A DNA stretch of 24,180 bases, from the IMG/VR virus record IMGVR_UViG_3300009504_000038, positions 1-24,180 of that record; one strand, given 5' to 3'. The position numbers and the translations under genes are program-made. The notes beneath the pieces are model-generated. The model was not told the origin of the DNA. It did not search any database and worked only from the letters and a program-made list of their open reading frames with translations. Source of the DNA: a virus. Below are positions 1,051-24,180 of this stretch, one piece after another; position 1 is the first letter of the stretch; each line of letters begins with the position of its first letter.

Positions 1051-1291
1051 TTTTGTCCTCCTTACCAGCTCTCCAAAGGTCCACGATGTCCTGCGCTTTT
1101 CGTGGTGAAATCTCCACGTAGGTCCGCTCCGAGGGACCGCCCCGCAGCTCAATCAGCACGGAGTTTGATTCCTGCCATTCACCGTCCCTGTCCAAATACC
1201 AGGCCGTGTAGCCGCTCGGGGATAACCGCCGCAGACCGACTGGATTGGACTCCGGGTTATCTGGTAACATGACCGCCGCAAAGTACCGCAC
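1043..1291 (-). CDS. Small hypothetical protein (82 aa), GTG start coupled to upstream stop
   Basis: The product is a soluble protein without recognisable motifs; its centre (YTAWYLDRDGEWQESNS... LIELRGG) looks beta-rich. I chose the GTG at 1291 because GGGGGAGG lies 5 bases upstream and because the GTG overlaps the TAG stop of the 1252-residue gene (TAGTG), a standard coupling arrangement. An in-frame ATG at 1351 would lie inside the preceding gene and has no ribosome site. Because it is co-translated with the multi-enzyme protein, an immunity or chaperone role for that protein is possible. This is inference from position only. Confidence 0.65.
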   Translation of the reverse strand: MRYFAAVMLPDNPESNPVGLRRLSPSGYTAWYLDRDGEWQESNSVLIELRGGPSERTYVEISPRKAQDIVDLWRAGKEDKNE

Positions 1292-5049: not shown

Positions 5050-5384
5050 CCGGTCTCGTCATCCTTGGTGGTTTGGGGAGTTTGAGGTACGTTTCTGGTG
5101 AAGCGGAAGCCCTTATCTCCCGGATATCTCTCGGTGTGCCGATTCCGACCCTCCCAAATGTCCGCCGGGATTACGTCGAACGATTTACAGCGCATCCGGG
5201 CTTTTAGCCGGACCCGCCAATCCTCATCCCGGGACCGCCCGGGTGTATAATGTTCGCATAACATGCAAACACCGCTGTACCAGGTCGCATAGAGCTCTCC
5301 ATCGTCTATGATGTAGACCTCGGTGCCCTCCGGAATCTCCTGTATGTCTAGCTCAAACTCGAACTCAGGCTCCTTGCCCTCCAC
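5046..5384 (-). CDS. Small Cys/His domain protein (112 aa), free-standing copy of the N-terminal domain of its neighbours
   Basis: After an acidic, Glu-rich start the protein repeats the pattern found at the N-termini of the 823- and 1252-residue proteins: EGTEVYIIDDGEL, then CMLCEHY, a spacer, C with SF, IPADIW, GRN, H and YPGD. The CxxC plus later Cys and His suggest a small metal-binding fold. Phages often have small proteins of this CxxCxH...IPxxI...YPGD kind; I do not know their function. I chose the GTG at 5384 because AGGGG is 8 bases upstream; the GTG at 5393 would lie directly on that site. The stop overlaps the ATG of the 1252-residue gene. It may be a stand-alone adaptor for the same partner that the fused versions bind (inference). 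Confidence 0.7.
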   Translation of the reverse strand: MEGKEPEFEFELDIQEIPEGTEVYIIDDGELYATWYSGVCMLCEHYTPGRSRDEDWRVRLKARMRCKSFDVIPADIWEGRNRHTERYPGDKGFRFTRNVPQTPQTTKDDETG

Positions 5385-5386
5385 AG

Positions 5387-6793
5387 TTACCACCCCTTTT
5401 TGACGAAATCTGGAGTGCGGGCTTTCAGCGTAGACTTCACGTCATCGCTATGTCTGGGTTTGCGTTCATACTGGAACGCTCCGTTGGTCATCTCATCAAC
5501 TCTAGTCCACACCAGATGTGAGTGCTGCTCCGCAGCTCCCTCCGCAGTCAATTCACCTTTTCCGACTCTTTCGCGGAGCTGCGATACAACTTCTTGCTCC
5601 GCTCGGTCAAAAAGGTCATCGAGGATTATTTGGCCGTCAATGGGCTTGCTGCCGTGCCAATCGGGTGGGTCAAAAGAGGTATCCCAACCATCCAGAGTTT
5701 CTGGCCTTCTCATGCTGTATGTGTACCGTTCTCCAACTGCGCGAATCTCAGATACATCATCGTAGGAAGCTGCCCGCAGGTCAGCACCACTAAACGAGCG
5801 GCCACTCGGATGATTGTGCGTAAGCACCATACCCGCCATCTTAGACCGCACATCAGTTGGTATCCTTATCGAATACTCGTTGCCCGTGTAGGCGAAAATC
5901 TGCTCTCCAGTGTTCGGGTCGATACAAACGCCTATTTCGAGTCGGCTCCGTACAATACGGTCCTCAGTCATCTTGACAATCCGGGCCGTTCGACCGGATA
6001 CCGTCCCTACCCCACCACCAGGGTCAGAACCACCATGCACGTCCTCTAGACCAGTGTGTGCCCAGTTGCCGGAAGCAGGACTGCCCAACTGGTGCAAACC
6101 CTCATCTAGCTGGGTCTTTCGGGCTTTCAGCGTAGACTTAACGTCATCGCTGTGCCTGGGTTTACGCTCATACTGGAACGCTCCATCAGCCCACCCATCG
6201 ACCTTAGACCACATTAGGTGGTTGTGCTGCGTAGATGCTTCCTCCGCAGTCATTACACCCTGGTCCACCAAAGGTCTCTGCACTGAGTATGCGTACTCGT
6301 TTGCGTGTTCCATAAGGTCGCGTATATCCATAACCATCGAAGCCCCCAGCCACTCGCCCGAAGCGTCAACAGGTGTGGGAAAATCAGTTTGCCAGCCGTC
6401 CGGGGTGTCTGGCCGTTGGATAGTGTATGTGTACCGTTCTCCAACCGCCCGCATCCCAGCTAAGTCCTCCCTAGCTGCACATATCAGGTCGGCACGGCTA
6501 AAAGAGCTCCCACTCGGATGGTTGTGGGTAAATACCATGCCCTTCATCAGTGGCCGCGCATCTACCGGAAGATATACGTGGTCCGCGCCGCCCTTGTAGG
6601 CGAAAATCGGCTCCCCAGTGTTTGGATTGATACAAACGCCTGTCTCGTATGGGTTACGCACTATCCGGTCCTCGGTCATCTTTGTAACCCGGGCAAATCG
6701 GCCAGCCGGAGTGCCTACCCCTCCACCAGGGTCTGAGCCGCCATGCACGTCCTCTAATCCCGTATGTGCCCAGTTACCAGAGGCTGAACTGCC
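5387..6793 (-). repeat. Two tandem about 700-bp copies of a motif + JAB module
   Basis: Modules 2 and 3 of the 823-residue protein (about 6793-6089 and 6088-5387) remain alike in DNA. For example, the 64 bases at 5418 and those at 6120 (gggctttcagcgtagactt start, tggaacgctcc end) differ at only about five positions. The motif-coding segment near 6050 also recurs near 6760, 7525 and 8640. This shows a recent tandem duplication inside an older series of four or five copies. Confidence 0.75.
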
Positions 6794-7858
6794 AAGTTGG
6801 TGCAGACCCTCGTCTAGTTTGGCCTTCTTGGCCTCGGGGCTCACGTCCGCAGGGTGCCGAGCTCGGGTCGTGTACTGCAAATCGCCGTTGGTCCACTTGT
6901 CCACGAGCTTCCAAGCCTCGTGCCGAGTCTTGTTTTCGATGTCCCGCACGTCCTGGCCAGTTGGCCTGTTACCCGGCAAATCATACATAGCCATAATTCG
7001 GCTGTGTGCTTCATCGTCAACCATGTTATGTGCATCCAAAAACAACTCATGAACCGACATAGACTGTTTACCTCGGCCCAAGGAATAGAGAGTATTCCAG
7101 CCGTCTGGACCTGGTGGCCGGGAAATGCTGTACTCCCACTTTTCGGTTATAACCCGCATCTCGCGCAGGTCGGTGGTAGCCGCAGCCCGGAGGTCCGCCT
7201 GGCCCGGCGGGGTCATTTCATCATAGTTGACCGCACTGCCGTATGCCCCATCCTCGTGGTCAAGCCAGCCCCAGTATCTGTGTGATGGGTGATTGTGGGT
7301 GAATACCTTGTCGCGCATCAGCACTGTAGCAGCGTTTGGGAGACGAACAGACTGCTCATCGCCCGTGTAGGCAAACACCTGGTTCCCGGTCTCCGGGTCC
7401 ACGCAGACAGCTATCTCCACGGATGAACGCACAATCCGGTCCTCAGTGAGTTTCAGGAATTGCGCTGTCCGGCCCTCCGGCCCACCAAGTCCACCACCAG
7501 GGTCGGAACCCCCGTGCACATCCTCTAGACCAGTGTGTGCCCAGTTGCCGCTGAGCTGACTGCCCAGTTTCACGGTGTCCGGCTGTTCGACCAGCTCAAT
7601 AGGGGCGTATTGATAATCCCGGTCGCCAGTGTAGGGCTTGGTATGGTCATTCCGGCCCTGCCAAATCGGGTCGGGGATGTAACGGAACGCTTCGCAGGTC
7701 CGAAACTTGGTCTTGTGGTCCGGGCTGAACCCCACAAGGTGACCGCGAAAGTGTTTACAGGACATGCACCGCGCACCCCAAAACAGCTCTAGCAGCTCGG
7801 AGTCGTCAATCACGAAAACTTCTTCGCCCTCGGGAACCGGGATGGGCTCAATCTCCAC
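5387..7858 (-). CDS. 823-residue protein with Cys-rich N-domain and three tandem motif + JAB/MPN-like metalloprotease modules
   Basis: Residues 1-90 are the shared Cys/His domain (CMSCKH, C55, IPDPIWQG, H72, YTGD). Three modules follow, at about 98-355, 356-590 and 591-823. Each opens with an SGNWAHTGLEDVHGGSDPGGG motif, then a domain with a TEDRIVR strand, a CxxPxTGxxxFAYxG strand and a JAB/MPN-like metal site: H188/H190, H445/H447 with S454 and D457, and H681/H683 with S690 and D693. Each ends in a helical tail finishing QY-x2-(K/R)ARH/KPRH. In JAMM enzymes HxH...SxxD binds zinc for isopeptidase or peptidase action; RadC-type members share the HNHPSG form. Module 1 has an insertion after HNHPS. 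Modules 2 and 3 are also close at the DNA level, so duplication looks recent. The GTG start lies 2 bases after the previous stop. Substrate unknown. Confidence 0.75.
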   Translation of the reverse strand: MEIEPIPVPEGEEVFVIDDSELLELFWGARCMSCKHFRGHLVGFSPDHKTKFRTCEAFRYIPDPIWQGRNDHTKPYTGDRDYQYAPIELVEQPDTVKLGSQLSGNWAHTGLEDVHGGSDPGGGLGGPEGRTAQFLKLTEDRIVRSSVEIAVCVDPETGNQVFAYTGDEQSVRLPNAATVLMRDKVFTHNHPSHRYWGWLDHEDGAYGSAVNYDEMTPPGQADLRAAATTDLREMRVITEKWEYSISRPPGPDGWNTLYSLGRGKQSMSVHELFLDAHNMVDDEAHSRIMAMYDLPGNRPTGQDVRDIENKTRHEAWKLVDKWTNGDLQYTTRARHPADVSPEAKKAKLDEGLHQLGSSASGNWAHTGLEDVHGGSDPGGGVGTPAGRFARVTKMTEDRIVRNPYETGVCINPNTGEPIFAYKGGADHVYLPVDARPLMKGMVFTHNHPSGSSFSRADLICAAREDLAGMRAVGERYTYTIQRPDTPDGWQTDFPTPVDASGEWLGASMVMDIRDLMEHANEYAYSVQRPLVDQGVMTAEEASTQHNHLMWSKVDGWADGAFQYERKPRHSDDVKSTLKARKTQLDEGLHQLGSPASGNWAHTGLEDVHGGSDPGGGVGTVSGRTARIVKMTEDRIVRSRLEIGVCIDPNTGEQIFAYTGNEYSIRIPTDVRSKMAGMVLTHNHPSGRSFSGADLRAASYDDVSEIRAVGERYTYSMRRPETLDGWDTSFDPPDWHGSKPIDGQIILDDLFDRAEQEVVSQLRERVGKGELTAEGAAEQHSHLVWTRVDEMTNGAFQYERKPRHSDDVKSTLKARTPDFVKKGW

Positions 7859-7860
7859 GC

Positions 7861-9570
7861 TTAGCCACCACCCTTCTTAGGCATCGGCAGGGGCTCGGCT
7901 TTGCGGGTATCCTGCCTGTCCGCAGAGTGCCTCGGAATGGCTTTGTACTGTATCTCACCTTCGGTGAGCTCGTTTATTAGCTCCCAGGTCCGGTGCCTGC
8001 GGGACAGAGCCTGCTGCTCAACAGTTGCCCGGCCAGCCTGCACGTCCGCCGCGTCTTGTTGGGACACCCTCCAAGCGGCGTAGTTTGCGATTTGACCCAA
8101 GTCTCCAGACTTGTATCGGGAATCCTCCGGCATTGGCCACTCTCTGAGCCACCCGGTGCCGCGAACCTCGGGTATTTCACCACCTCGGTAGAGTGCCGGA
8201 CTGCTCACAACATCCCCACCGGGCCGGGAAATCTCGAACACCCAGTTTTCCGTGACGGCCCTCATACCCCGAACGTCCACTATGCGAGCAGCCTCTAGGT
8301 CAGTGGTGGAAAACGAAACCTTGGCCTCGGGAACCTCTATAATCTCCAACCCACCACCAATATCGAGTTTACCCGCGCCCTTACCATAGTGGCTGGTCCC
8401 GCTAGGGTGGTTGTGAGTCAAAATCCGGTTCTCGAGCTTCCAAGCCTCAGCCCGAGGAATATTGACGGTGCGCTTAGTGCCCGAATAAGCGAAAATCTGC
8501 TCTCCGGTTTTGGGGTCGATGCAAACCCCTATCTCCACGGGTGAGAGGACTATCCGGTCCTCGGTAAGTTTCAGGGTCCGTGCTGTCTTACCTGCGGGTG
8601 TGCCGACACCACCGCCCGGGTCGCTGCCGCCATGCAAATCCTCTAGTCCAGTATGCGCCCAGTTACCGGAGCCCACACCGCCAAACTGCCACGGTGCACT
8701 GAGCTGGGGAATCGTTGGCGGCTTGTCCGGGACCCGGGTCCGGGAATACTGGACCCCAGTCTGCTCGGCGATTCGCTGCCACAAGATGTGCCGGAGCTCG
8801 GCCTCCTGTTGGCCCCGGGTCATATCGCCCAGCTGACCGCCATACCGCTCGAACAGTATCTCGTATGCCCCATTGGTGCTGCGGTAGTCGCGGAAGATGT
8901 CAGTCAAGGTCTGCGGGTAAGGGTTGCTCGGACCGTCATCCCGGGCCTGGTAGACATACTTTTCGCGCCAGCCGCCCTCGGGCCGGGGGATACTGTGGAT
9001 ATAGTCCGGGGTCACCACCATAACCTCAGCCGGGTCATTGTCCGCCGCAAACTCCATATCCCCACCGCTAGGCCCGAACTGCCCACCATCGAGCACCACA
9101 TGGTTGTGGACCATGATTGAGTCTCGGATAAGGTGGAGTTGGTCGGACGGCCAGTACACCGCCAGCTTTTCGCCCTTGGCCTCGACCGGGATTTCACCGT
9201 CCGGCGTGACCACCGCGCCGTACTCGACCTCACGGTCCTTTATTGATAATGCAACCCCTACAGCCAGCCGCTTGTTTATGCTCCGCTGGCGGTTCTCCGG
9301 GCCTCCCGCGCCGGGCTGGGACCCACCGCGAACCCCAGGCACCCCAACGTGCCCCCAGTTACCGGAGCCTGGTCCGCCCATACTAAAAGGCTCCTGCGCC
9401 GTCTTTGTCGGCGGGTCAGGAGCCCAGAAGTCCCGGTGGAGACCCTCCCACTCGGAGTCGGTCATGTCATCTTCGTCGTTGCCGCCCAATTCACCGACAA
9501 TCGAGGTAATCCAGGCCCTAAAAGCCTCCAAGCTGCGGTCCTTTGGCGCGGCCATGATGCTTTCAGGCAA
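7861..9570 (-). CDS. 569-residue protein with two motif + JAB/MPN-like modules, the first divergent
   Basis: A short acidic leader (rich in D, E and W) ends in a GGPGSGNWGHVG motif near residue 65. The first module keeps a VHNHV site and a downstream PSGGD, so HxH...SxxD is present but the rest is diverged. The second motif (GGVGSGNWAH...LEDLHGGSDPGGG) near 297 precedes a typical module with LTHNHPSG and, after a roughly 30-residue insertion, FSTTDLEAA. It ends with the same helical tail (WELINELTEGEIQYK...PRH) as the modules of the next gene. I chose TTG 9570, which sits 9 bases after a perfect AGGAGG and overlaps the upstream stop by 8 bases. ATG 9555 is a possible but poorly spaced alternative, and TTG 9576 is too close to the site. 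Role inferred as a peptidase-like head cargo or effector. Confidence 0.72.
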   Translation of the reverse strand: MPESIMAAPKDRSLEAFRAWITSIVGELGGNDEDDMTDSEWEGLHRDFWAPDPPTKTAQEPFSMGGPGSGNWGHVGVPGVRGGSQPGAGGPENRQRSINKRLAVGVALSIKDREVEYGAVVTPDGEIPVEAKGEKLAVYWPSDQLHLIRDSIMVHNHVVLDGGQFGPSGGDMEFAADNDPAEVMVVTPDYIHSIPRPEGGWREKYVYQARDDGPSNPYPQTLTDIFRDYRSTNGAYEILFERYGGQLGDMTRGQQEAELRHILWQRIAEQTGVQYSRTRVPDKPPTIPQLSAPWQFGGVGSGNWAHTGLEDLHGGSDPGGGVGTPAGKTARTLKLTEDRIVLSPVEIGVCIDPKTGEQIFAYSGTKRTVNIPRAEAWKLENRILTHNHPSGTSHYGKGAGKLDIGGGLEIIEVPEAKVSFSTTDLEAARIVDVRGMRAVTENWVFEISRPGGDVVSSPALYRGGEIPEVRGTGWLREWPMPEDSRYKSGDLGQIANYAAWRVSQQDAADVQAGRATVEQQALSRRHRTWELINELTEGEIQYKAIPRHSADRQDTRKAEPLPMPKKGGG

Positions 9571-10102
9571 CCTCAATCACCTCCTGCGTATGCACACAAT
9601 ACACCGCAAGCTGCCCGTTGGCCCGTGCCAGCTCTAATGCGCTTTCTCTTGTCGAAGTCCTGATAGATACGTCTAAGTATACCGTATCTCCATCGACCCA
9701 GCCACCAAGGAAATGCTCGGGCTCCCGGAGCAGGTCACGGTTCTGGACCACGTATTCGGCCAGTTTGCGCCGGGACAGGTCCTTTACGGGCATAGCCTGC
9801 TCCCGGTCCTTATACGGACTGACCATATAGCCGTGCGTAGGCACCACGCCGTCGACGGTGGTCGAGAAACCACCGTCATCGCGCAGCTTCTGGAGCAGGC
9901 CGGACATCTGCAAACCGTCCGCCCGGTCCGGAATACGCTTGGCCTCGGCAGTCCCGGCCACAGGACCCGCGCCTGGTCCCGGTGGAGACCCTCCCCAAAC
10001 GTCCGGCAGTCCATCATGGTCATGGTGACCAGAACCCGGACCACCCAGCCTATACGGCGGAGGAACCGCTAGATAGCTGGCCATCCGAGCTGCTGATTTC
10101 AC
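9563..10102 (-). CDS. 179-residue protein: GGPGSGHH motif plus recurrent phage domain of unknown function
   Basis: Residues 20-46 carry the HH flavour of the recurring motif (GGPGSGHHDHDGLPDVWGGS, then PPGPGAG), the same form found near residue 1030 of the 1252-residue protein. Residues about 75-175 form a compact domain with GGFSTTVDG, PTHGYMVS, a charged helix, NRDLLREPEHFLGGW and YLDVSIRTSTRESALELA. I recognise this arrangement (GF...P..GY.V...GGW...LD.S...) from other phage structural-region proteins but cannot name a function. The GTG start overlaps the portal stop by 4 bases (GTGA); an in-frame ATG at 10084 is an alternative. It is the first gene after portal-MuF in the accessory series and overlaps the next gene. 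Confidence 0.7.
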   Translation of the reverse strand: MKSAARMASYLAVPPPYRLGGPGSGHHDHDGLPDVWGGSPPGPGAGPVAGTAEAKRIPDRADGLQMSGLLQKLRDDGGFSTTVDGVVPTHGYMVSPYKDREQAMPVKDLSRRKLAEYVVQNRDLLREPEHFLGGWVDGDTVYLDVSIRTSTRESALELARANGQLAVYCVHTQEVIEVA

Positions 10103-12402: not shown

Positions 12403-13956
12403 CTACCACACAGCCTCCCTCGCCTGCGTTCGGCCTACCGCTGCCAGACCTCTAGTGGCCTTGCTCAGATAGTTACCTCGCAGGCGTAGTAGTGCCTGGG
12501 ACATCGCGTCTAGCTGGTCATCTGTTGCTCCGGCGGGTGCGTTCGCCGTTTCCTCGATGAACTCGTGAACCCACGGCTGCATATTCGGGTCCGGCAGGTA
12601 TATGTTGCCCGCCTCAACCAACGGGGTCACAGCGTGCCACCGAGCGATTTTCGGGCCTTTGGGCGTGTCAGGAATTATTCCTGGAACAACCTTCTTTAAG
12701 GCCGATATTACCGCAGGTCCGTTGGCTTTGTCCTCGATATACACCGCTGTAGCCTCCGGCCACTTCTCCGAGAGATTTTGGACGGCATTTACGGTCTCCA
12801 CGAAGTCCATTCTGCGCCTTACCTGGTCCAAAAGGTATCGGTCCGGCCCGATGGCCCCCCAAACCTGGCCCACAACGAAGGAGCCGCCCACGGTCTCCTT
12901 GAACGTCATGTCCCAACTGATGACGATACGAGCCAGGTAGCTCGGGATGTCCGTGTAGTGCCTCCACCACGAACGCTTGAACAGGCCACCTTCCTCCGGC
13001 GAGGGACGTTGTTGATAAAGTGCCGCCCAGGCGAAGGAGCCGACCTCTTTTTTGCGTTGCTCCGCCCATTCGGAGTCGAAACCGCCCTCCGGCCACAAAG
13101 TCTCACCAACCTCCCGGCCAAGCGCATCATCTTCCTCAGCCAGGGCCGGAAGGTTGACCACGGTCCATCGGTCGGGTTCCTCGGATATTAAACGCCCAGC
13201 TAGGTCATCTTCGTGCCACCGTGTCTGGATTAGGATGACCGCGCCGGATGGGGATAGCCGGGTCAGGAGCGTATGCTGCCACTCTCGCCACAAACGGTCC
13301 CGCATAGTGGGGTTCGAGGCTTCCGCCCGGTTTTTGATGGGGTCATCGATGACCAACAAATCCGCACCCTCGCCCGTGATGGAGCCCCCAACGCCCGAGC
13401 TGATTAGACCGCCACGATGGTCGGCGACTGACCAGTTGGTGACCGAAGCGTTCCCTAGCTGCACTCCATAGCCGAATAACTCAGGTCCGAAGTCGGCCAC
13501 CTTACGGCGATTGGCCCGACCGAACCGTTGGGCAAACTCATCGGAATACGAGACCTCAATGACCCGACGGTCGGGGTTCCGCAACAGATACCAGGCCGGG
13601 AAGGACTCGGTGACCGTCATCGACTTGCCGTGCCTTGGTGGCAGGGCTAGTATCAGACGGTCTATCTCGCCGGATTCGACGAGTTTGAGGTACGAGCAAA
13701 TTAGGCGGGTGTGTGCGGCGTGTTTGTAGAGCCCGCCGTGGACATACTCGACGAAAAACCAAAACTCCTTACGTGCCAGGGCTTTGTATAAAGATTCATC
13801 CGGTATGCGGGTCTTTACGCCGGGATACTTAGCCGCAAAGACCTGACCCACCCTCCGTCGCGCTTTGTTGATGGGGTCACGTCCAATACGAGTGTTGTGT
13901 TCGCGCCGCCAGACGGCGTATTCTTCGGGGTCATGGTAGTGCCTAGTCAGACTCAT
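12403..13956 (-). CDS. terL: Terminase large subunit
   Basis: The 517-residue protein has an ATPase half with Walker A-like PPRHGKS (106-112) and Walker B LLVIDDP (200-206), a TRWHEDDL coupling segment near 245-252, and a C-terminal RNase H-like nuclease half beginning ISWDMTF (D349) with a second acidic block at IEDKANG and a third at DDQLDAM. These are the usual TerL features: ATP-driven DNA translocation into the procapsid and end cleavage. Length is normal. The ATG overlaps the terS stop by 14 bases, and the portal gene begins at the next base after the stop. No intein or frameshift is visible. Confidence 0.95.
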   Translation of the reverse strand: MSLTRHYHDPEEYAVWRREHNTRIGRDPINKARRRVGQVFAAKYPGVKTRIPDESLYKALARKEFWFFVEYVHGGLYKHAAHTRLICSYLKLVESGEIDRLILALPPRHGKSMTVTESFPAWYLLRNPDRRVIEVSYSDEFAQRFGRANRRKVADFGPELFGYGVQLGNASVTNWSVADHRGGLISSGVGGSITGEGADLLVIDDPIKNRAEASNPTMRDRLWREWQHTLLTRLSPSGAVILIQTRWHEDDLAGRLISEEPDRWTVVNLPALAEEDDALGREVGETLWPEGGFDSEWAEQRKKEVGSFAWAALYQQRPSPEEGGLFKRSWWRHYTDIPSYLARIVISWDMTFKETVGGSFVVGQVWGAIGPDRYLLDQVRRRMDFVETVNAVQNLSEKWPEATAVYIEDKANGPAVISALKKVVPGIIPDTPKGPKIARWHAVTPLVEAGNIYLPDPNMQPWVHEFIEETANAPAGATDDQLDAMSQALLRLRGNYLSKATRGLAAVGRTQAREAVW

Positions 13957-14422
13957 TGGGCTTGGTCCGCTTCTGCCGGAATATCTCGCCTACACGCTCA
14001 GCGATTTCCTCGTCTCCAAGCAGGGCATCGACTATGGAGTGGTTGTGGTCGATTTGGAGCTGTAGAGGTTCATCACCCCAACGGTCCTTGGCCCGCCGTT
14101 TGAGCCATTCGAGCAGTGCCTTCCAATCCTTCTCCATCCCGATTTGCCGCAAAGCCGCAACCGCTTTGGCCTCAGCTTTGGCCTCGGCCTTCTCGATATC
14201 GAGCGCAAAGGTCTTGAACGGCTCTCGGGCACCCTTTTGGGAGCCTTTGTGACACCAGTAGGTTATGGTGTCTGTCGGCAGGCCAACTAACTTCTCCGCA
14301 ACTGACCGCCATTGGCCGTCCTCAAGGGCCTCAAGGATGACCCGCTTCTGCCAGTCCTCGACAACCACCTTATTTCCGTAGGTCAGCCGGGTCTCCAACC
14401 GTGTTCTTTTGCTTTGTGCCAT
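13943..14422 (-). CDS. terS: Probable terminase small subunit
   Basis: This 159-residue basic protein has an N-terminal helix-turn-helix-like stretch (QKRVILEALEDGQWRSVAEKLVGLPTDTITYWCHKG, about 25-60) followed by a long charged helix (IEKAEAKAEAKAVAALRQIG) and a C-terminal tail. TerS proteins bind the packaging start site with the HTH and oligomerise through helices. The gene sits directly upstream of and overlaps terL, the usual order. The ATG has GAGGGG about 10 bases upstream. The iteron array beginning about 340 bases upstream is a candidate recognition site (inference). The call depends on context plus HTH; the sequence similarity of such proteins is generally low. Confidence 0.8.
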   Translation of the reverse strand: MAQSKRTRLETRLTYGNKVVVEDWQKRVILEALEDGQWRSVAEKLVGLPTDTITYWCHKGSQKGAREPFKTFALDIEKAEAKAEAKAVAALRQIGMEKDWKALLEWLKRRAKDRWGDEPLQLQIDHNHSIVDALLGDEEIAERVGEIFRQKRTKPNESD

Positions 14423-14648
14423 TGGTCAACACCCCTCTTAGGTGTTCAGTGTAGATATCCTCAACCCGAGATAGTAGTGCCGGGGGCAATCTCTCCGGTG
14501 CCGCAAACAAAAGAGTCCGCAACCGTTTGGGCCAGGTCGCAGACTCTGCGATAACGCGGTCGTAATAAGAGTCGCCGACACCACGCAGACCCTCATCCCG
14601 GGCCTGTCGCCTAAACTCACGCAGGGCCATCATCCCGAGAGACCTCAT
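14370..14648 (-). CDS. Small hypothetical protein upstream of and overlapping terS (up to 92 aa)
   Basis: This open frame gives a basic, helical product (ALREFRRQARDEGLRG... LLSRVEDIYTEHLRGVLT) and overlaps the start of terS by 53 bases, an unusually long overlap for this genome. I recognise no domain. The annotated ATG at 14648 lies inside a palindrome (14644-14659). The ATG at 14633, 9 bases after GAGG, would give 87 residues and may be the true start. Protein-like composition and operon direction support it, but a regulatory leader is also possible. Confidence 0.5.
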   Translation of the reverse strand: MRSLGMMALREFRRQARDEGLRGVGDSYYDRVIAESATWPKRLRTLLFAAPERLPPALLSRVEDIYTEHLRGVLTNGTKQKNTVGDPADLRK

Positions 14649-14659
14649 ATCAATATGAG
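14644..14659. promoter_or_regulatory. 16-bp palindrome at the start of the head operon
   Basis: CTCATAT-CA-ATATGAG is a perfect 7-bp inverted repeat with a 2-base centre. It lies at the first gene of the rightmost head-operon block and just upstream of GAGG...ATG (14633). It looks like a dimeric repressor operator or a small translational hairpin. I could not find a convincing -35/-10 pair next to it, so the regulatory reading is inference. Confidence 0.35.
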
Positions 14660-14743
14660 TCTATCCTGCAATCTTCCGAAAAGTCTAGCCGTACCTCAAT
14701 TCTCCTAACTCCTTCCAAGTGACAAAAACAACCCAAAGTGTCT

Positions 14744-14905
14744 ATTTCGGCACACGAAATGCGGTCGATACCCTCATTTCAGCGGTCGATTAGTATGTCA
14801 GATTCTTACAACGGTCGATACCCTCATTTCAGCGGTCGATACCGCCAAAACGGCGGTCGATTAGCCGTTTTCAGCGGTCGATACCCTCATTTCAGCGGTC
14901 GATTA
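14744..14905. repeat. Phased iteron array, block A (CGGTCGAT every 21 bp)
   Basis: The octamer CGGTCGAT starts at 14762, 14783, 14812, 14833, 14854, 14875 and 14896. Every step is exactly 21 bases except one of 29. 21 bases is two turns of B-DNA, so the sites face the same side. The bases after the octamer alternate between A and TA, and the spacer CCCTCATTTCAG recurs at 14771, 14821 and 14884. A small inverted repeat (ATTTCG...CGAAAT, 14744-14760) sits just before the first copy. There is no convincing gene in 14649-15002; this array and the hairpin below are its contents. Such arrays bind replication initiators, terminase small subunits or repressors. Position next to terS favours a packaging or replication site (inference). 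Confidence 0.85.
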
Positions 14906-14923
14906 CAGCGAAAGCCGAATGAT

Positions 14924-14987
14924 AAATGCTAATCGACCGTTTCACCACCCCCCCTTTAGGGGGGGTAAAAACGGTCGATTAGCATTT
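14924..14987. repeat. 64-bp near-perfect inverted repeat carrying two iterons and a C7/G7 stem
   Basis: The 19-base arms AAATGCTAATCGACCGTTT (14924-14942) and its exact complement (14969-14987) each contain one CGGTCGAT iteron, pointing toward each other on opposite strands. Inside them is a second stem of seven C (14948-14954) and seven G (14959-14965) around TTTA. The DNA could extrude as a cruciform, or the transcript of either strand could fold into a long hairpin. No U-rich tract follows immediately, so it is not a typical terminator, though it could slow readthrough from the small-gene operon into the head operon. Confidence 0.85.
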
Positions 14988-15002
14988 CGGGGGTCCGGTC
15001 GG

Positions 15003-15146
15003 TTACTGTTTCGACAACTCACGCACCCAACAATACTTGCCTCTTTGCCACTGATAGCTGGGCTCCAAGATTATCGTGCACTCATTTCTGTTCTTCCAGA
15101 TTTTGCTACAGCCTTGGCATTGTTCAACCAGCCGCACACGCTCCAC
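15003..15146 (-). CDS. Tiny zinc-ribbon-like protein (47 aa or slightly longer)
   Basis: This is an open frame of 47 codons from a GTG at 15146, extendable to 15170 if CTG were used; a stop lies just before that. Its product has C-x2-C (CQGC), then C at EC-TII and C at KYCW, with aromatic and basic residues (IWKNRNEC, YQWQRGKYCW), typical of a small zinc-ribbon-like fold. Its tail is VRELSKQ. The site CGGCGG is a weak SD before the GTG. It lies between the two iteron blocks and is in the direction of the small Cys-rich gene run, which supports it as real. Function unknown. Confidence 0.5.
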   Translation of the reverse strand: MERVRLVEQCQGCSKIWKNRNECTIILEPSYQWQRGKYCWVRELSKQ

Positions 15147-15184
15147 CGACTTCCGCCGCTTCTTGGCCAGCTAGAACACCCCCC

Positions 15185-15235
15185 CGGTCGATTAGCCATT
15201 TTTAGCGGTCGATACCCTCATTTCAGCGGTCGATT
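15185..15235. repeat. Phased iteron array, block B
   Basis: Three more CGGTCGAT copies start at 15185, 15206 and 15227, again at exact 21-base steps, with the same CCCTCATTTCAG spacer at 15215 and the same A/TA alternation as block A. The last copies overlap the final codons of the small membrane-protein gene on the minus strand. The two blocks are separated by about 200 bases holding the large inverted repeat and the tiny zinc-ribbon gene, so bound protein could loop the region (inference). Confidence 0.85.
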
Positions 15236-15394
15236 ACGTCTGAACGGGAATGGTTCTCCACGCAGAAAAACGATGGTCACTACCTGAGCCATCAGGACCG
15301 TGAGCACTCCCCAGGGGTTCTGGTTAGCCAGCAACCAGAGGGTCAGTGCCCACAGACCCACTACACATACCAGGTTCGCCAGCAGAGTTGGCAT
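15218..15394 (-). CDS. Small two-helix membrane protein (58 aa), holin-like size
   Basis: The frame begins MPTLLANLVCVVG and runs 58 codons. Residues about 4-23 and 30-44 are strongly hydrophobic (VGLWALTLWLLA; VLTVLMAQVVTIVFL), joined by a short NQNPWG turn. The tail is basic (FRRNRPLK). This is the shape of small holins or other phage membrane proteins, but no lysin is visible here, so I do not call it a holin. The ATG at 15394 overlaps the previous gene by 34 bases. A GTG at 15361 overlapping that gene's TAG is an alternative start that would truncate the first helix. Its 3' end lies in iteron block B. Confidence 0.55.
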   Translation of the reverse strand: MPTLLANLVCVVGLWALTLWLLANQNPWGVLTVLMAQVVTIVFLRGEPFPFRRNRPLK

Positions 15395-15651
15395 TGGTAT
15401 GTGCGTTTCGTCCCGGCTCCGCCTTCGTCCACTACTCGGGTATCCTCATAGTGACAGTGTGGACACACGGAAACTTGCCGGGCTCTCTCGGCGATGGTGG
15501 CCTCTAGACCCTGTTGAAATAACCGCATCTCGGCTAGAGTCAACAGGCACACACTGTCGACGTGGACTCGTTTGTCCGGCGGCAGGAGCTGACAGTATCC
15601 TGATTTGTAGTACCGACACACCATACAGGTCCACATAGTACAGGTCCGCAT
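15361..15651 (-). CDS. Zinc-ribbon protein (96 aa)
   Basis: The N-terminal part is Cys-rich (MRTCTMWTCMVCRYYKSGYC), followed by a helical segment (LTLAEMRLFQQGLEATIAERA) and a C-terminal four-Cys ribbon: CPHCHYEDT...CQLCWRTW. CPxC...CxxC is the classic zinc ribbon of nucleic-acid-binding or transcription-related proteins. I chose ATG 15651 because AAGGAGGAG lies about 6 bases upstream; a longer frame upstream encodes the 25-residue membrane peptide in another frame. It belongs to the tightly packed small-gene run. A role in binding DNA, RNA or a host protein is inferred. Confidence 0.75.
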   Translation of the reverse strand: MRTCTMWTCMVCRYYKSGYCQLLPPDKRVHVDSVCLLTLAEMRLFQQGLEATIAERARQVSVCPHCHYEDTRVVDEGGAGTKRTYQCQLCWRTWYV

Positions 15652-18202: not shown

Positions 18203-18231
18203 ATTATAACGGACCGCCCACCCGGGTTCAA
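18203..18231 (-). promoter_or_regulatory. Sigma70/sigmaA-type promoter of the small-gene operon
   Basis: On the minus strand TTGAAC (18231-18226) and TATAAT (18208-18203) are separated by exactly 17 bases, a near-consensus promoter. Transcription would start near 18196, about 28 bases before the GTG of the first small gene. The -35 overlaps the stop codon of the primase gene. The bases around the -10 (GGTCC-GTTATAATT) resemble those of the promoter near 20506. Confidence 0.8.
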
Positions 18232-20171
18232 CGGTGAATCGTGATTTCGCCCGGGTCATCTACTATGCTGCTCAGGGAGGTGTTCCGGCTCTCCTCGATT
18301 CCGAGCTCGGTTATCCGGCACCTGACGCTGCGTCCTGTGCCCTCCATCACCGCAAAGCCCCTGCTACACAGGAGGGTCACAATTTCGACCGCCTTGGTGC
18401 GCCCACACCCCAAAAGCTCCCGGACATCCCGGTTCTGCACGGCCTCGACCCGGACCATGTGGTGCAGCAACCGCCGCCATTCCGCGTCAGCTGAGGTCAT
18501 CGCCGTGACATCATATTGGTTGTCGCCGAATCGGCCCAGGTTGAACGTGAGCTCCAGCTCCGGTAGCACCCCGACCCGCAACTGCCGCTCCATATTGAGC
18601 GTCCGAGCACTGCCCTCCGGCTGCGACCTTTGCTCCTGGTCGACGTAACGCAGATACGCTCCAGAGTCCAACCATCCGTGCAGTGTAGTCGACCCCAAGA
18701 GCCTTTGACCACCCCGCACCCCTGCCGAGCCCTTGGAAAAGTGGTGGACCACCACAATCGCCAGCTGGTAGGTCCGGCTGAGCTGGATTAGCTGCTGCAA
18801 TACGGGCCGGAGCTCCCGCTCATCCGAGACACTGGCCGCACCGAGCATCAGGTAGAGCGGGTCCAGGACCAGCAGTACGGGCTCGGTCTCCTCGATTTTG
18901 GCCATCAGTCGCATCATGTGGTCCCGGTCGGTCAGGTTGAATCCCTCTTGTGACAACAGATGTATGGGGATGTCCTGTAGGGATGGGGTCGGCTGTATGG
19001 TATACCGCCCGTTGTCGGACCTGCGGATAATGGGTCTGAGGTCCCGGCCCATCTTATGTTGGAGTATCTTGAAAAAACGGTCCTGTACGTCCCGGGGATG
19101 GTTCTCATTTTGGACAATCAGCACCGGGCCTTGGTGGCCAATCTCCATCGAGCCCAAAAACGGTTTGCCTGTGGCCACGCTTACCGCTAGGTCGGCAGTA
19201 AGAACACTCTTGTACGTCTTAGGCTCCCCAGCCACAATGCCGTAGCTCTCCCGGGTCCAAAAGTCTTTGACCAGCCAGAGCTGTTCGCCGAAGTGCTCGT
19301 GCATGAGGTCATCAAGGTGCTGCCACGGGGTGGCCTCCAACAGAGCACTAGTGGCGGTTGGGGAGTTGTCCAGCAGCTCAATGAAGGTGTCGCGGAAGGT
19401 CTCTTGGTTCCGGCAGTACAGCTCATTGGGGTCCTTGGCCTCCGCCGGGAGCTTGGCCACCCGGACGGCTCCGCTGAACCGCAAAGAGCGCAGCTTGGCC
19501 GGGACGTTGGCCGCAAACTGCGCTCCCGCATCGTCATTTTCTTGGACCACCCAAATTGTCGACAGGTCCCGGACCATCTCCGCTGTCAGGAGGTGGACCA
19601 TCGAGGCCCCGGGGATACCGAGGGCCGGGATTTCGTTGTACCACAAGGTCCAACAGTCGGATTCGCCCTCGACAATCACCAGATACTGCTCCTGGCGGGC
19701 CTCATCGAGCCGCCAAAGACCATACGGCACGGGCCTGCCAGTGCTGCCGAGCCACCTCGGACCCCCGCCCGGACCCATGATGGTCCGCAGACGCTGCCGG
19801 GGTGCCGGGGTGCTGTCCTCCAATAGATAAGGTATGCCGACCCCTCTGGGGGTGTCCTCCAAGCCGAGCTCCCGCAGGAAGTCCTCCGGTATGCCTTTGC
19901 TCTCGGACAGTGCTGCGACCGTGGCGGACACCGAAGGGCTCCGGGTATCATCCAGGAACAGGTCCTCGGAACCCAGGCCCAGCTCCGTGGCTATCTGCTC
20001 CGCCGGAGCCTGGCACCCGTGACAGTGCAACAAAATGCGGTGGCCCCGCACGTCGATTGACAACGATGGATTGGTGTCGGCATGTACCGGGCATCTGGCC
20101 TGCCATTTGTCCGGTCCCTGCTCTCGAACACCGTCAAGACGCTCTAATAGCGCAGCTACCTTGGTGTGCAT
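18228..20171 (-). CDS. DnaG-type primase / RepA-like hexameric helicase (647 aa)
   Basis: The N-terminus is a CHC2-type zinc-binding domain (C27 and H30 in RCPVH, C50 and C53 in HCHGC), followed by a Toprim-like segment (VIVEGESD, 166-172). Residues about 310-530 form a RecA-fold ATPase: Walker A GEPKTYKS (315-322), Walker B VLLVLDPLY (432-440) and VVVHHFSKG with RGGQRLLGS. A winged-helix-like end (RDVRELLGCGRTKAVEIVTLL) follows. Together they synthesise primers and unwind DNA at the fork. I prefer ATG 20171, with AGG 9 bases upstream and 8 bases after the regulator's stop; it gives the usual short N-terminus. ATG 20231 would add 20 residues. The Toprim part is less canonical than the zinc and ATPase parts. 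Confidence 0.88.
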   Translation of the reverse strand: MHTKVAALLERLDGVREQGPDKWQARCPVHADTNPSLSIDVRGHRILLHCHGCQAPAEQIATELGLGSEDLFLDDTRSPSVSATVAALSESKGIPEDFLRELGLEDTPRGVGIPYLLEDSTPAPRQRLRTIMGPGGGPRWLGSTGRPVPYGLWRLDEARQEQYLVIVEGESDCWTLWYNEIPALGIPGASMVHLLTAEMVRDLSTIWVVQENDDAGAQFAANVPAKLRSLRFSGAVRVAKLPAEAKDPNELYCRNQETFRDTFIELLDNSPTATSALLEATPWQHLDDLMHEHFGEQLWLVKDFWTRESYGIVAGEPKTYKSVLTADLAVSVATGKPFLGSMEIGHQGPVLIVQNENHPRDVQDRFFKILQHKMGRDLRPIIRRSDNGRYTIQPTPSLQDIPIHLLSQEGFNLTDRDHMMRLMAKIEETEPVLLVLDPLYLMLGAASVSDERELRPVLQQLIQLSRTYQLAIVVVHHFSKGSAGVRGGQRLLGSTTLHGWLDSGAYLRYVDQEQRSQPEGSARTLNMERQLRVGVLPELELTFNLGRFGDNQYDVTAMTSADAEWRRLLHHMVRVEAVQNRDVRELLGCGRTKAVEIVTLLCSRGFAVMEGTGRSVRCRITELGIEESRNTSLSSIVDDPGEITIHR

Positions 20172-20179
20172 GGCCGCGC

Positions 20180-20464
20180 CTACTGTGCTTGCTGATTCGG
20201 TATCGGAGCTGCGTTTCGCCAGGACTCCCATTCAGTCCATAAGGTCTTAGGTCGACAGGCGTACAGCTTGGAGAGCTCCGTCGCCCGGGGTTCGGTCAAA
20301 TCCACCACGCCGGACTCGATTGCAGCGACTGTAGCAGGGGATACTCCAAGATGTAGGGCGATTGTAGCTCGGGATAGTCCTCTTTGCTCACGGCGGATTC
20401 TGACCGGATTTTCTCGGGTCCAGTCTCTGCGGCGGGTCTCATCGACACGACTAAGCGGCGGCAA
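20180..20464 (-). CDS. XRE-family HTH regulator (94 aa)
   Basis: The core PVRIRREQRGLSRATIALHLGVSPATVAAIESGVVDLTEPRATELSKLY is a Cro/CI-type helix-turn-helix with the usual IRREQ...S...A..LGVS..TV..IE.G spacing. It would bind operator DNA as a dimer. I chose the TTG at 20464, 8 bases after GAGG; no ATG is available downstream of the promoter in this frame. The C-terminal tail (KTLWTEWESWRNA) is Trp-rich. It is the first gene of the minus-strand operon and faces another XRE gene across the promoter region, so it is likely one half of an early switch (inference). Confidence 0.8.
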   Translation of the reverse strand: MPPLSRVDETRRRDWTRENPVRIRREQRGLSRATIALHLGVSPATVAAIESGVVDLTEPRATELSKLYACRPKTLWTEWESWRNAAPIPNQQAQ

Positions 20465-20500
20465 AATGCAGCCCCTCCTCCCAAGATGGTCTGTGCAACA

Positions 20501-20509
20501 ATTATAACA
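20501..20509 (-). promoter_or_regulatory. Extended -10 promoter of the leftward regulator/primase operon
   Basis: The minus strand reads TGTTATAAT, a perfect -10 hexamer with an extended TG. The -35 at 17 bases (TTCCGC) is poor, which extended -10 promoters tolerate. The start site would lie near 20494, about 30 bases before the TTG of the HTH gene. Its -35 zone overlaps the -35 of the rightward promoter, so the two may compete or share an operator. Confidence 0.65.
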
Positions 20510-20521
20510 GGACCATAGGTA

Positions 20522-20551
20522 TTGCGGAAGCCCAAACCCAAAGTATATAAT
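20522..20551 (+). promoter_or_regulatory. Rightward promoter for the HTH-queT-dpdA-polymerase operon
   Basis: TTGCGG (20522-20527) and TATAAT (20546-20551) are 18 bases apart. AGGAGG (20571-20576) and a GTG at 20586 follow. The C/A-rich spacer (AAGCCCAAACCCAAAG) is distinctive. The whole intergenic region is only about 120 bases and serves both directions. Confidence 0.75.
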
Positions 20552-20585
20552 TATGCTAAACACCCAACAGAGGAGGTTTTGAGTC

Positions 20586-20816
20586 GTGCCGATTACGGTA
20601 ATGGAGTACCGCAGGCGGACCAAGGGGCTAACGCAGATAGAGCTGGCCCAGCATGTCGGGCTCAGTCAGCCCGAGATTTCGCTCATTGAGAGCGGTCACG
20701 CCCAGCCCAAGCCGGATGTGCGGGCTGCGCTGGCCAGGACTCTCGATGTCGACCCGCTTCACCTGCAACTCGACTACGCCGAGTGGTTGAGGGTGCTGCG
20801 CGATGAGACTGCTTAA
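20586..20816 (+). CDS. XRE-family HTH regulator (76 aa)
   Basis: Nearly the whole protein is a Cro/CI-type HTH domain: EYRRRTKGLTQIELAQHVGLSQPEISLIESGHAQPKPDVRAALARTLDVDP, with the recognition helix around SQPEISLIESG. There is no effector domain, as in Cro-like repressors. The GTG at 20586 is 9 bases after AGGAGG; an ATG at 20601 is less well placed. The gene leads the rightward operon and overlaps queT by 14 bases, so it may autoregulate the DNA-modification and replication genes (inference). Confidence 0.85.
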   Translation: MPITVMEYRRRTKGLTQIELAQHVGLSQPEISLIESGHAQPKPDVRAALARTLDVDPLHLQLDYAEWLRVLRDETA

Positions 20817-21312
20817 GGTTGACTGGACCCCCAGGTTGTTGGCACATACGGCGGTTCTAGCTGCGGTTATCGTGGCCACGAACATGCTGACCTCGGTGTT
20901 CTCATTCAGCGTGGGTCCGCTCAACTTGAGAATCGGTGACGCTCTGTTAATGCTGGTCTACTACTCGGGACCGTGGGCAATCTACGCCTTCATCATTGGT
21001 GGTACGGTCTCCAACCTGTTAGGAAGTCCGCTCGGTCTCATCGACGTGATATGGGGTGGAGTGGGCCTCAGCCTCATCGGTGGCTACCTATCGCTCCGGG
21101 CTCCTAACGCTGTCACGTCCGCTTTGGCTTGGGCGTTGACCACGGGCATTGGAGTGGCTGGCATGTTGACGCTCATGCTGGGCCTGCCGTTTTGGGCTTT
21201 GGCTGTGCCCATCACCCTATCCAACGCCGTAGTCCTGTTGATAATCGGCATCCCACTCTGCCGGACCCTGGTTCATCGGGTCCTGTGGGTGCCTATACGG
21301 AGGGACCGCTAG
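20803..21312 (+). CDS. queT: QueT-like queuosine-precursor transporter (169 aa)
   Basis: This integral membrane protein has five or six hydrophobic segments (about 12-33, 48-67, 76-98, 103-126, 129-150). It carries the QueT-family signature: FSVGPLNLRIGDALLML near the start, and NLLGSPLGLIDVIWGG in the middle, matching the family's N-L-SPLGLIDV block. QueT proteins are thought to be substrate-binding subunits of ECF-type transporters for queuosine precursors such as preQ1 or preQ0. A phage copy would raise the supply of a 7-deazaguanine base. The ATG at 20803 has GAGGG 10 bases upstream. The TAG stop overlaps the GTG of the transglycosylase gene, a strong functional link. Exact substrate is inferred. 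Confidence 0.8.
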   Translation: MRLLKVDWTPRLLAHTAVLAAVIVATNMLTSVFSFSVGPLNLRIGDALLMLVYYSGPWAIYAFIIGGTVSNLLGSPLGLIDVIWGGVGLSLIGGYLSLRAPNAVTSALAWALTTGIGVAGMLTLMLGLPFWALAVPITLSNAVVLLIIGIPLCRTLVHRVLWVPIRRDR

Positions 21313-22136
21313 TGCATCTGGCTTTGATTACCCCGATTCCGCTCCTGGACAGGTTTCGGGAGCTGATGGACCCCTACCACCTGGTATTGGCGCACCTCTG
21401 CCGAGACCCAAGATACCTGGACTTTTACTGCCAACGAGCAGCAGACGGCGATGAGGTCATCCTGGATAACAGTGTCCACGAGGGCCACAACGTCGACCTG
21501 GTAGACCTGATTGGTCTGACGCACACGCTGAGTGCCACCACCGTAGTCCTGCCGGATACCCCGTACCAAGCCGCTCGGACCGTGCAGCAGGCCCGGCAAT
21601 ACTACCAGACCCTGCGGACGGCACTGCCCGGGGTCAAGCTCATGGCCGTGCCTCACGGGTCCACCTACCTGGGATTCGGGGCCTGTGTGTCCCAACTGGT
21701 CGGTCTTGGAGTGGATAGCATCGGACTGGTCCGGGACTGCACCTGTTGGTACACCATCCGGGCCTATCTAATCCCACACCTGCGGCACGTCCTACAGCCT
21801 ACGCAGACCCTACATCTATTAGGTGGCGAATCTCAGCCAGTGGAGGTCTACCTGTTGGGCCTGGCCGTCAAAATGGCCCGCACTCCCGACCCGGTACATG
21901 GCACCAGTCTGACCACCGTGGGCATAGACACCTCTAAACCGCTGGTCCTGGCGCACCACGGGATATGCCTGTCCGACAAACTGCTGTTTGACAACGTGGA
22001 ACGCGAAATCGACTGGAATGGTCGGCCAGTAGATTACTTTGAGCTCGATAACATTGACTATGACCTAGCCAAAGAGAACATCCGGGTCTACCGGGCCTGG
22101 TTGGATGGTGAGGTTGGGGGGTTGGACCGTGCTTAG
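21312..22136 (+). CDS. dpdA: DpdA-like DNA transglycosylase, TGT superfamily (274 aa)
   Basis: The barrel-like chain shows YHLVLAHL (22-29), DEVILDNSVHEG (47-58), TTVVLPD (76-82), VKLMAVPHG (108-116), LGVDSIGL (132-139) and LHLLGG. These resemble phage DpdA proteins, relatives of tRNA-guanine transglycosylase that exchange guanine in DNA for preQ0 or a related 7-deazaguanine. D52 and D82 are candidate catalytic aspartates by position (inference). The canonical TGT zinc site is not evident; a CTC pair sits near 143-145. I start at GTG 21312, 7 bases after GGAGGG and overlapping the queT stop; a longer frame runs inside queT and is rejected. No preQ0 synthesis genes lie in this window, which fits import by QueT. 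Confidence 0.72.
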   Translation: MHLALITPIPLLDRFRELMDPYHLVLAHLCRDPRYLDFYCQRAADGDEVILDNSVHEGHNVDLVDLIGLTHTLSATTVVLPDTPYQAARTVQQARQYYQTLRTALPGVKLMAVPHGSTYLGFGACVSQLVGLGVDSIGLVRDCTCWYTIRAYLIPHLRHVLQPTQTLHLLGGESQPVEVYLLGLAVKMARTPDPVHGTSLTTVGIDTSKPLVLAHHGICLSDKLLFDNVEREIDWNGRPVDYFELDNIDYDLAKENIRVYRAWLDGEVGGLDRA

Positions 22137-24180
22137 TGATTGCGACAACTGCCCGTTACAGGGTAGACCGCAGGTGCTCGGTCAGGGCACCAAGAACGGC
22201 ATCGCCGTGGTCGGTGAAGCTCCGGGGGCCAGTGAGGTGTCCCGCCGGGAGCCGTTTGTCGGCTCATCCGGTCAGCTGCTCCGGGCCACACTGAGAGCAG
22301 CCAGCATAGACGACTCCAAGCTCTGGGTCACGAACACCTGTTTGTGTCGGCCCGAGGGCAACGCTACTCCGACCCAAGACGCAATCGATGCGTGTCGGCC
22401 CCGGCTGTTGGCCGAGCTCCAGGGCATCCGGAAAATCCTGCTCTGTGGCAACACGCCGCTCCGGGCTTTGACCCCCTACAAATCGGTAGCCAAAACTCGG
22501 GGCATGGCTTTGTGGCTCGATGACCTGGACGCTCTGGCCGTGTCAACCTGGCACCCAGCTAAATGCCTGTATGTGTTCGATGATTTCCGTGACTTCGCCA
22601 AGGACGTGGAGAAGTTTTCGCTCTTGGCTCCTACACGAGAGTCCGCTGCTCAGCTGCCACCGCCAAGGGTCCGGATGTGTCGCTCGGTACGGGACGTGCG
22701 CGAAATGCACCAGGCCCTCCGGGACACGAACCTGCTGGTATGCGACCTGGAGACCTCGGGCAAGCGTTTGATACAGGCCCAGATAATCCTGGTCACGCTC
22801 CAAGGCACACCGGAGCTGGCCTGGCAGGTGCCTAGTCGGCTGCTGCGTATCCGCCAAGTGGTTGACCTGCTCCGGGACCTGCTTGAAAATCCTCCATACC
22901 CTACCGCAGGTCACAATGCGATGTTCGACTCCAAGTTTCTGCTGCACTACCTCGGAATCGACTGGCGACCGACTCATGACACAATGCTGGCGCACTACCT
23001 TATAGATGAACGGTCTGCCGAGGCCGACACTGGCGCAGGCGGTGAAGCTCTCAAAGTGCATGGCCTCAAGGTCCTGGCCCGGGAATACTACAACATCCCG
23101 GATTACGAAGAACCGCTGGCTCTGTACCTGCGGAAAATTAAGGCCGACCGCAAGAAGTTAGGCGATTTGACCCCCACCACCTTTGGTGACATCCCGCTCG
23201 AAATGCTTAGCCCGTATGCTGCCCGGGACACCCAGATAACCAGGCTGTTGGTCGACCCCCTAAACCAGTTGGTGCAGGAGGAGCCCAACCTGGTCCCAGT
23301 GCTTGAGGACATCCTGCTCCCGGCCAGCATGGCTCTGCGGGACATCGAGCGGTTGGGCATCACCATCAACGTCGATTATCTGCGGGATTTGCGGACCCAA
23401 TACATGACCGAGATAGAGACCGCCGCTCAGAAAATCGTGGCTCTCAATGGCGAGGACCTCAACCTGAACAGTCCGGTACAGTTGGCCAAGTTGCTTTACG
23501 ACAAGCTCAGGTTGCCCCAGCTCAAGGGCCGTTCCACCGACCGGGAGTGCCTGCGCTACCTCCGGGATAGACATGAGATAGCTGGTCTTATCCAAACGCA
23601 CCGGACCCGGACCAAGCTGGTAGGCACCTACGTCGACGGCATCCTGGAACGGGTCGACCCGGACGGCAGGGTGCGAACCAGTTTCCTGGTCCACGGCACG
23701 GTCAGCGGTCGGCTCAGCTCACGCGACCCCAACCTCCAGAACATCCCCAACTATGACGCACCGGAGATTCGCCGGGCCTTCGTGGCCACGCCGGGATGGG
23801 TCTTGCTGAACGCCGACTACAGCCAAATCGAGGTCCGGATAGCGGCCTGGTACGCAGAGGACCAGGGGCTCATCGAGGCTTACACCAAGGGTTACGATAT
23901 CCACCGGACCACGGCCAGCCAAATGTTCCGGGTCGACCCCGATAAGGTGACTGCACATCAGCGGCAACTGGCCAAAAGAACAGTGTTCGCCATTCTGTAC
24001 GGCGCGGCAGCACAGGCGTTGGCCGCAGAGTTTAAGGTCTCCATAAACCAGGCTCAGAAGTACATCACAGATTTCTTGGACCGTTTTGACGGCCTGGCCG
24101 AATGGATTGCAGCGCAGCAAGAACAGGCTATGACTCATGGGTATGTGGAGTCGATGTTTGGCCGCAAACGCAGGTTCCCG
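22129..24180 (+). CDS. Family 4 uracil-DNA glycosylase fused to family A DNA polymerase (partial, right edge)
   Basis: The frame is open for 684 codons to the window edge. Residues 1-165 are a family 4 UDG: Fe-S cysteines C5, C8, C73 and C89, GEAPG (29-33) with EPFVGSSGQLL, and WHP (141-143). Residues about 200-375 are a 3'-5' exonuclease: DLE (206-208), NAMFD (263-267), Y363 and D367. Residues about 395 onward are Pol I-like: DPNLQNIP, motif A DYSQIEVR (563-570), motif B RQLAKRTVFAILYG (612-625). Motif C would lie past the edge. It would replicate phage DNA while removing or sensing uracil. All key residues seen are intact. The GTG at 22129 follows GGGGGG and overlaps the dpdA stop by 8 bases. 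The fusion in one chain is unusual. Confidence 0.9.
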   Translation, partial: MLSDCDNCPLQGRPQVLGQGTKNGIAVVGEAPGASEVSRREPFVGSSGQLLRATLRAASIDDSKLWVTNTCLCRPEGNATPTQDAIDACRPRLLAELQGIRKILLCGNTPLRALTPYKSVAKTRGMALWLDDLDALAVSTWHPAKCLYVFDDFRDFAKDVEKFSLLAPTRESAAQLPPPRVRMCRSVRDVREMHQALRDTNLLVCDLETSGKRLIQAQIILVTLQGTPELAWQVPSRLLRIRQVVDLLRDLLENPPYPTAGHNAMFDSKFLLHYLGIDWRPTHDTMLAHYLIDERSAEADTGAGGEALKVHGLKVLAREYYNIPDYEEPLALYLRKIKADRKKLGDLTPTTFGDIPLEMLSPYAARDTQITRLLVDPLNQLVQEEPNLVPVLEDILLPASMALRDIERLGITINVDYLRDLRTQYMTEIETAAQKIVALNGEDLNLNSPVQLAKLLYDKLRLPQLKGRSTDRECLRYLRDRHEIAGLIQTHRTRTKLVGTYVDGILERVDPDGRVRTSFLVHGTVSGRLSSRDPNLQNIPNYDAPEIRRAFVATPGWVLLNADYSQIEVRIAAWYAEDQGLIEAYTKGYDIHRTTASQMFRVDPDKVTAHQRQLAKRTVFAILYGAAAQALAAEFKVSINQAQKYITDFLDRFDGLAEWIAAQQEQAMTHGYVESMFGRKRRFP

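Follow-up and report, generated by a model that had tools for sequence, protein, structure and literature searches.

Gene organisation around the array

We analysed a 24,180-nt stretch of DNA, referred to here as the window, which is part of a tailed-phage genome that is incomplete at both ends and belongs to an unclassified bacterial virus. A non-coding array of repeated octamers lies at the junction of a leftward early operon, which carries a primase-helicase gene and small genes, and the late operon. The first gene after the array is a 92-amino-acid (aa) ORF on the minus strand (14370-14648), which is without family in the ORF list and domain searches, and it is followed in order by terS, terL, the portal gene and the genes for large head-region proteins. 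The terminase small subunit gene (terS, 13943-14422, minus strand) matched phrog_4102 (1.2e-15) and the large subunit gene (terL, 12403-13956, minus strand) matched phrog_38 (2e-121).

The octamers fall into two blocks, A and B. Between the blocks lies a cysteine-rich 55-aa ORF (15003-15170, minus strand), which probably starts at a CTG or else at a GTG at 15146, and whose weak matches to NF038144 PxxKW (2.2e-5) and DUF6811 (5.9e-5) both fall below the curated cut-off. The ORF list further gave a membrane-like 58-aa ORF (15218-15394, minus strand), the 3' end and stop codon of which sit inside block B. Just upstream is a gene for a 96-aa protein, counted from an inner ATG (15361-15651, minus strand), with a C-terminal zinc ribbon that gave weak NrdR and PaaD-ribbon matches, making it a candidate regulator. 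The primase-helicase (18228-20231, minus strand) contains a CHC2 zinc ribbon, Toprim and AAA_25 in domain searches and is a candidate origin binder. Near 20.5 kb we observed a divergent regulator region with HTH genes on both sides.

Copies and spacing of the octamer

The octamer CGGTCGAT occurs in 12 exact copies in the window (11 direct and one inverted), all within 14762-15234, with none elsewhere in the window. The expected count is 0.80, and 100 dinucleotide shuffles gave no more than four. Octamer counting and a repeat search placed seven direct copies in block A (14762-14903, plus strand; starts at 14762, 14783, 14812, 14833, 14854, 14875 and 14896) and three in block B (15185-15234, plus strand; starts at 15185, 15206 and 15227), which closely repeats the last three units of block A. 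The remaining two are an inverted copy at 14932-14939 and a direct copy at 14972. A mismatch scan added one degenerate octamer, CGGTCGGT (14996-15003, plus strand), which carries one mismatch and is the sole such copy within the array.

The steps between successive copies are 21, 29, 21, 21, 21 and 21 bp in block A and 21 and 21 bp in block B. Seven of the eight are therefore exactly 21 bp, and the 29-bp step is the one break in the exact phasing of the array. When the same number of sites was placed at random, equal steps numbered at most four in 3000 trials. These results confirm that the array is real and non-random, and it is probably functional. The initial annotation of this DNA had the coordinates of the array right, along with the single inverted copy and the 21-base steps (five of six in block A, both in block B). 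Its ten direct copies become eleven on recounting, and of its two totals for the equal steps, seven of eight holds and eight of nine does not.

The two copies outside the blocks occupy the arms of a large inverted repeat, which had also been described between the blocks and is indeed present. The predicted hairpin or cruciform (14924-14987), identified by an inverted-repeat search and by folding, has 29-nt arms (14924-14952 and 14959-14987) that are 86% complementary and separated by a 6-nt gap, with one octamer per arm, the left inverted and the right direct, around a C7/G7 core. The array region folds with a z-score of -7.4, and this hairpin is the strongest feature of a very stable fold. 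An intrinsic terminator was rejected as its role, since no T-run follows it on either strand.

Signs of selection and duplication in the repeat unit

Nine of the twelve 21-bp units are distinct, and the octamer is invariant in all nine. The 13-bp spacers of these units share a mean identity of 38%, compared with 26% for random 13-mers. One spacer, ACCCTCATTTCAG, is present four times in the array, and this recurrence, together with the near-copying of the last units of block A in block B, indicates growth of the array by duplication. That process may also be the source of the constant 21-bp period, and because tandem duplication can give such a period, equal steps alone are no proof of helical phasing. 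The octamer, in contrast, has stayed invariant while the spacers diverged and so would be the part kept by selection. We consider a perfect octamer in diverged units to be a stronger sign of selection than the 21-bp period.

The array could instead have expanded within a non-coding gap as a selfish or neutral tandem repeat to which no protein binds. Such an origin would agree with the four identical spacers, with the partial copying of block A in block B and with the way the array runs into the end of the 58-aa ORF, but it sits poorly with an octamer that remains perfect in nine units despite spacers this divergent, with the confinement of the octamers to this one locus of the window and with the absence of a similar array from other viruses and from 299 bacterial genomes. 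We judge it improbable. A coding repeat was rejected, as the common unit has stops in all three minus-strand frames, the plus-strand frame shifts at the 29-bp step (octamer positions modulo 3 change from 2 to 1) and no ORF spans both blocks. Transposon ends were likewise rejected, the blocks being in direct rather than inverted orientation, and searches of the array for CRISPR repeats and Rfam families gave nothing at gathering score.

The claim of a multi-site protein-binding array, made in the initial annotation, is well supported by the invariant octamer, the diverged spacers, the non-coding position and an adjoining AT-rich segment. Judged from the sequence, an octamer that recurs unchanged at two helical turns in such a setting most likely serves cooperative protein binding.

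Searches for comparable arrays

TerL relatives show at most 53-54% identity. A search for the array in related phages had been proposed as a check, and no counterpart was found in the TerL relatives examined, in which we looked upstream for repeated 8-mers and for 7- and 8-mers with regular steps. The repeats that these relatives do contain (an 11-bp array in L044, a 26-bp array in L018, repeats internal to terS in L009 and a 24-bp array in L020) all differ in sequence and layout. The L044 repeats, at 7522-7697 of a 67.6-kb viral contig, are unrelated 11-bp-spaced copies of GTGCTAAC with inverted copies, and the ORF downstream of them is possibly a gene for replication or partition.

No array of this kind, with the octamer at a 21-bp period, was found in IMG/VR. 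Triplets of CGGTCGAT at 21 bp in L005-L008 are unrelated, representing one GC-rich locus that has been copied and has other spacers. A further 33 viral contigs carry two phased copies and show no common array, those that we read appearing to be coding sequence or isolated pairs. Neither phage nor plasmid records contained a meaningful match to the DNA of the array, and the three-copy octamer pattern was absent from the 299 bacterial genomes. Single-sequence searches of viral contigs with the primase-helicase, portal, TerS, zinc-ribbon and 55-aa proteins, which reach only close relatives, returned no relative, and TerS had no match in phage records. By sequence the phage is a singleton among the collections searched, and for this reason the function of the array cannot be argued from conservation.

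Possible control of the late operon

The most AT-rich part of the window is a 113-bp segment (14647-14760) with 41% GC compared with about 58% overall. It directly adjoins block A, which it separates from the 92-aa ORF, and we identified it in a composition scan as a candidate for an unwinding element or a late promoter. Second in AT-richness is the divergent early regulator region, at 20483. A strict scan of the AT-rich segment beside the array found no consensus promoter; this says little, because the same scan found none at the early region (20465-20585) either. A relaxed scan gave a weak sigma-70-like pair, TTGTCA-15-GAGAAT (14699-14725, minus strand), which matches at 9 of 12 positions with a short spacer and, in transcriptional terms, lies 37 bp downstream of the proximal octamer. 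The pair may be due to chance, although a weak promoter with a 15-bp spacer and no consensus would fit one that depends on an activator. A terminator was likewise not found in the AT-rich segment.

The reading we prefer, with a probability of roughly 0.4, is that the array would be a cooperative regulator-binding site that controls the late operon in the manner of the Ltr/Alt late-promoter repeats. The weights that we attach to this and to all other readings are based on position and analogy. Activators of late genes that belong to the Ltr/RinA/Alt kind have their direct-repeat sites at the end of the early cluster, before the late operon; Alt of TP901-1, for instance, occupies four direct repeats from -76 to -32 (PMC13123087). 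The array likewise consists of direct repeats that come after the last early or middle genes and before the late operon, and both its position and its AT-rich segment match the late-promoter repeats of Ltr (Phi13), Alt (TP901-1) and RinA type. The conservation of the octamer amid diverged spacers also argues for such control. Unlike these systems, it has twelve octamers, arranged in two blocks with a hairpin, and its promoter is putative. The twelve sites span 470 bp and are more numerous than the usual four of Ltr promoters. None of the small ORFs scanned matched the Ltr, RinA or ArpU families, and only the zinc-ribbon protein and the cysteine-rich ORF stood out. That the array was seen in no relative also speaks against late control, as does the early divergent region (20465-20585), where CGGTCGAT is absent even with one mismatch allowed; this leaves no shared-operator logic, and we rejected a stoperator or an operator shared with the early switch on the same result.

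Under late-operon control, a DNA-binding protein of the phage or host would recognise CGGTCGAT, and several molecules would sit side by side on one helix face of block A at two-turn intervals, perhaps joined to block B through a loop across the hairpin. The bound array would then switch, presumably activate, leftward transcription from a weak promoter within 14647-14760, giving transcripts that cover the 92-aa ORF, terS, terL, portal and the rest. The zinc-ribbon protein encoded at 15361-15651 is only a candidate for the binder. If control of the late operon, or of replication, proves to be the function, the octamer offers a direct handle for fishing out the responsible protein of a phage that otherwise has no relatives and in which the usual late-activator families were not detected. 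At present the array stands as one clear but isolated case of a kind of control region that is well known.

Possible roles in replication, packaging or partition

Not far behind late-operon control we place a replication origin, a tentative but possible reading in which the octamers would be iterons for a phage initiator that melts the adjacent AT-rich segment, with the hairpin perhaps aiding extrusion or regulation. Plasmid iterons, as in P1, R6K and F, have a period of about 20-22 bp, an invariant core with variable spacers and an arrangement in clusters, all of which the array resembles, its direct repeats having a period of about two turns; it differs in a core of only 8 bp and in having no Rep gene adjoining. 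In SPP1, oriL and oriR consist of direct repeats and an AT-rich unwinding element, with oriR among the late genes beside moron genes (PMC6316719). The likeness extends to the array, where iteron-like octamers adjoin the most AT-rich segment of a compact phage genome close to late genes, although here we saw no gp38-like initiator or helicase loader. At 41% GC the segment is only modestly AT-rich, and a promoter region would look alike.

The initiator might be the C-terminal part of the primase-helicase, whose gene lies on the same strand, 3 kb upstream; this part was modelled as a winged-helix-like helix-helix-strand-strand fold. The structure models of two window proteins were both of low confidence, and that of the primase-helicase had a mean pLDDT of 48. 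Several further observations weigh against an origin. There is no DnaA box near the array, the only TTWTNCACA lying at 16027, and L209 and L210, which encode related primase-helicases, have no comparable repeats in the stretches read. GC skew shows no switch, but as it is negative over almost all of the left-transcribed region it cannot decide on an origin.

The closeness of terS had been taken to suggest a packaging or replication start. An origin does remain conceivable through the AT-rich segment and the co-encoded primase-helicase, whereas the link drawn from terS is not established, since the gene next to the array is the 92-aa ORF and the TerL relatives have no array in that place. A pac or cos site, at which TerS would bind the repeats and TerL would make its first cut in or near the array, is accordingly less favoured than late control or an origin, and we regard it as unlikely. 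The pac site of P1 has two clusters of sites around a cut, a layout that the two blocks recall, and the distance from block A to the start of terS is 340 bp. In SPP1, the pac site has its direct repeats in three sets that surround the start of terS, and in SPP1/SF6 the TerS DNA-binding domain does not read the pac repeats, that of SF6 showing no preference for them (PMC4737164). The array resembles SPP1/SF6 pac in having direct-repeat sets close to terS, but SPP1 pac spans the terS start, whereas here an ORF (14370-14648) intervenes and the octamer is perfectly conserved. Moreover, the TerL relatives examined, including the close L009, L122, FP_Brigit and TPWB-09, have no comparable phased array upstream of terS, and we recognised no HNH nuclease beside terS, unlike in HK97-type cos phages.

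We think it very unlikely that the array serves a plasmid-like or temperate phage as a partition centromere, a set of integrase arm sites or some other accessory region for binding. Two blocks of direct repeats are found in parC/tubC layouts, and the array is similar in this respect. In Miko and Rachaly, five direct repeats make up part of a parS locus (PMC7157519). Against this, no ParA, ParB, ParM, TubZ or integrase was recognised among the proteins scanned in the 24 kb of a contig that is incomplete at both ends. Equally slim are the chances of a dual role, in which one octamer-binding phage protein, placed at intervals of two helical turns, would both fire replication and switch on the late operon, with the two blocks bridged by the cruciform and the cysteine-rich gene captured between them. 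The family of this protein would be new, as no known initiator, Ltr or partition family was detected.

Other features of the window

To the right of the divergent regulator region lie a QueT-like transporter gene, a gene without assigned family and a fusion of uracil-DNA glycosylase (UDG) with DNA polymerase A. The first two adjoin on the plus strand (20803-22136), the transporter-like gene matching PF06177 (1.8e-18). The 279-aa protein of the second (21297-22136) had no Pfam, PHROG, NCBIfam or PDB match, and by eye it resembles tRNA-guanine transglycosylase/DpdA; the two genes are perhaps a 7-deazaguanine DNA-modification pair. The fusion gene (22105-24180, plus strand, cut by the window end) encodes, within a single reading frame, a uracil-DNA glycosylase domain (PF03167), a 3'-5' exonuclease (PF01612) and DNA polymerase A (PF00476). 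In the left part of the window (1291-10102, minus strand), a glycine-rich motif like GGPGSGNWGHxG...GGS occurs in six copies in three proteins (1291-5049, 7861-9576 and 9563-10102), and these copies are possibly polyprotein processing or linker sites.
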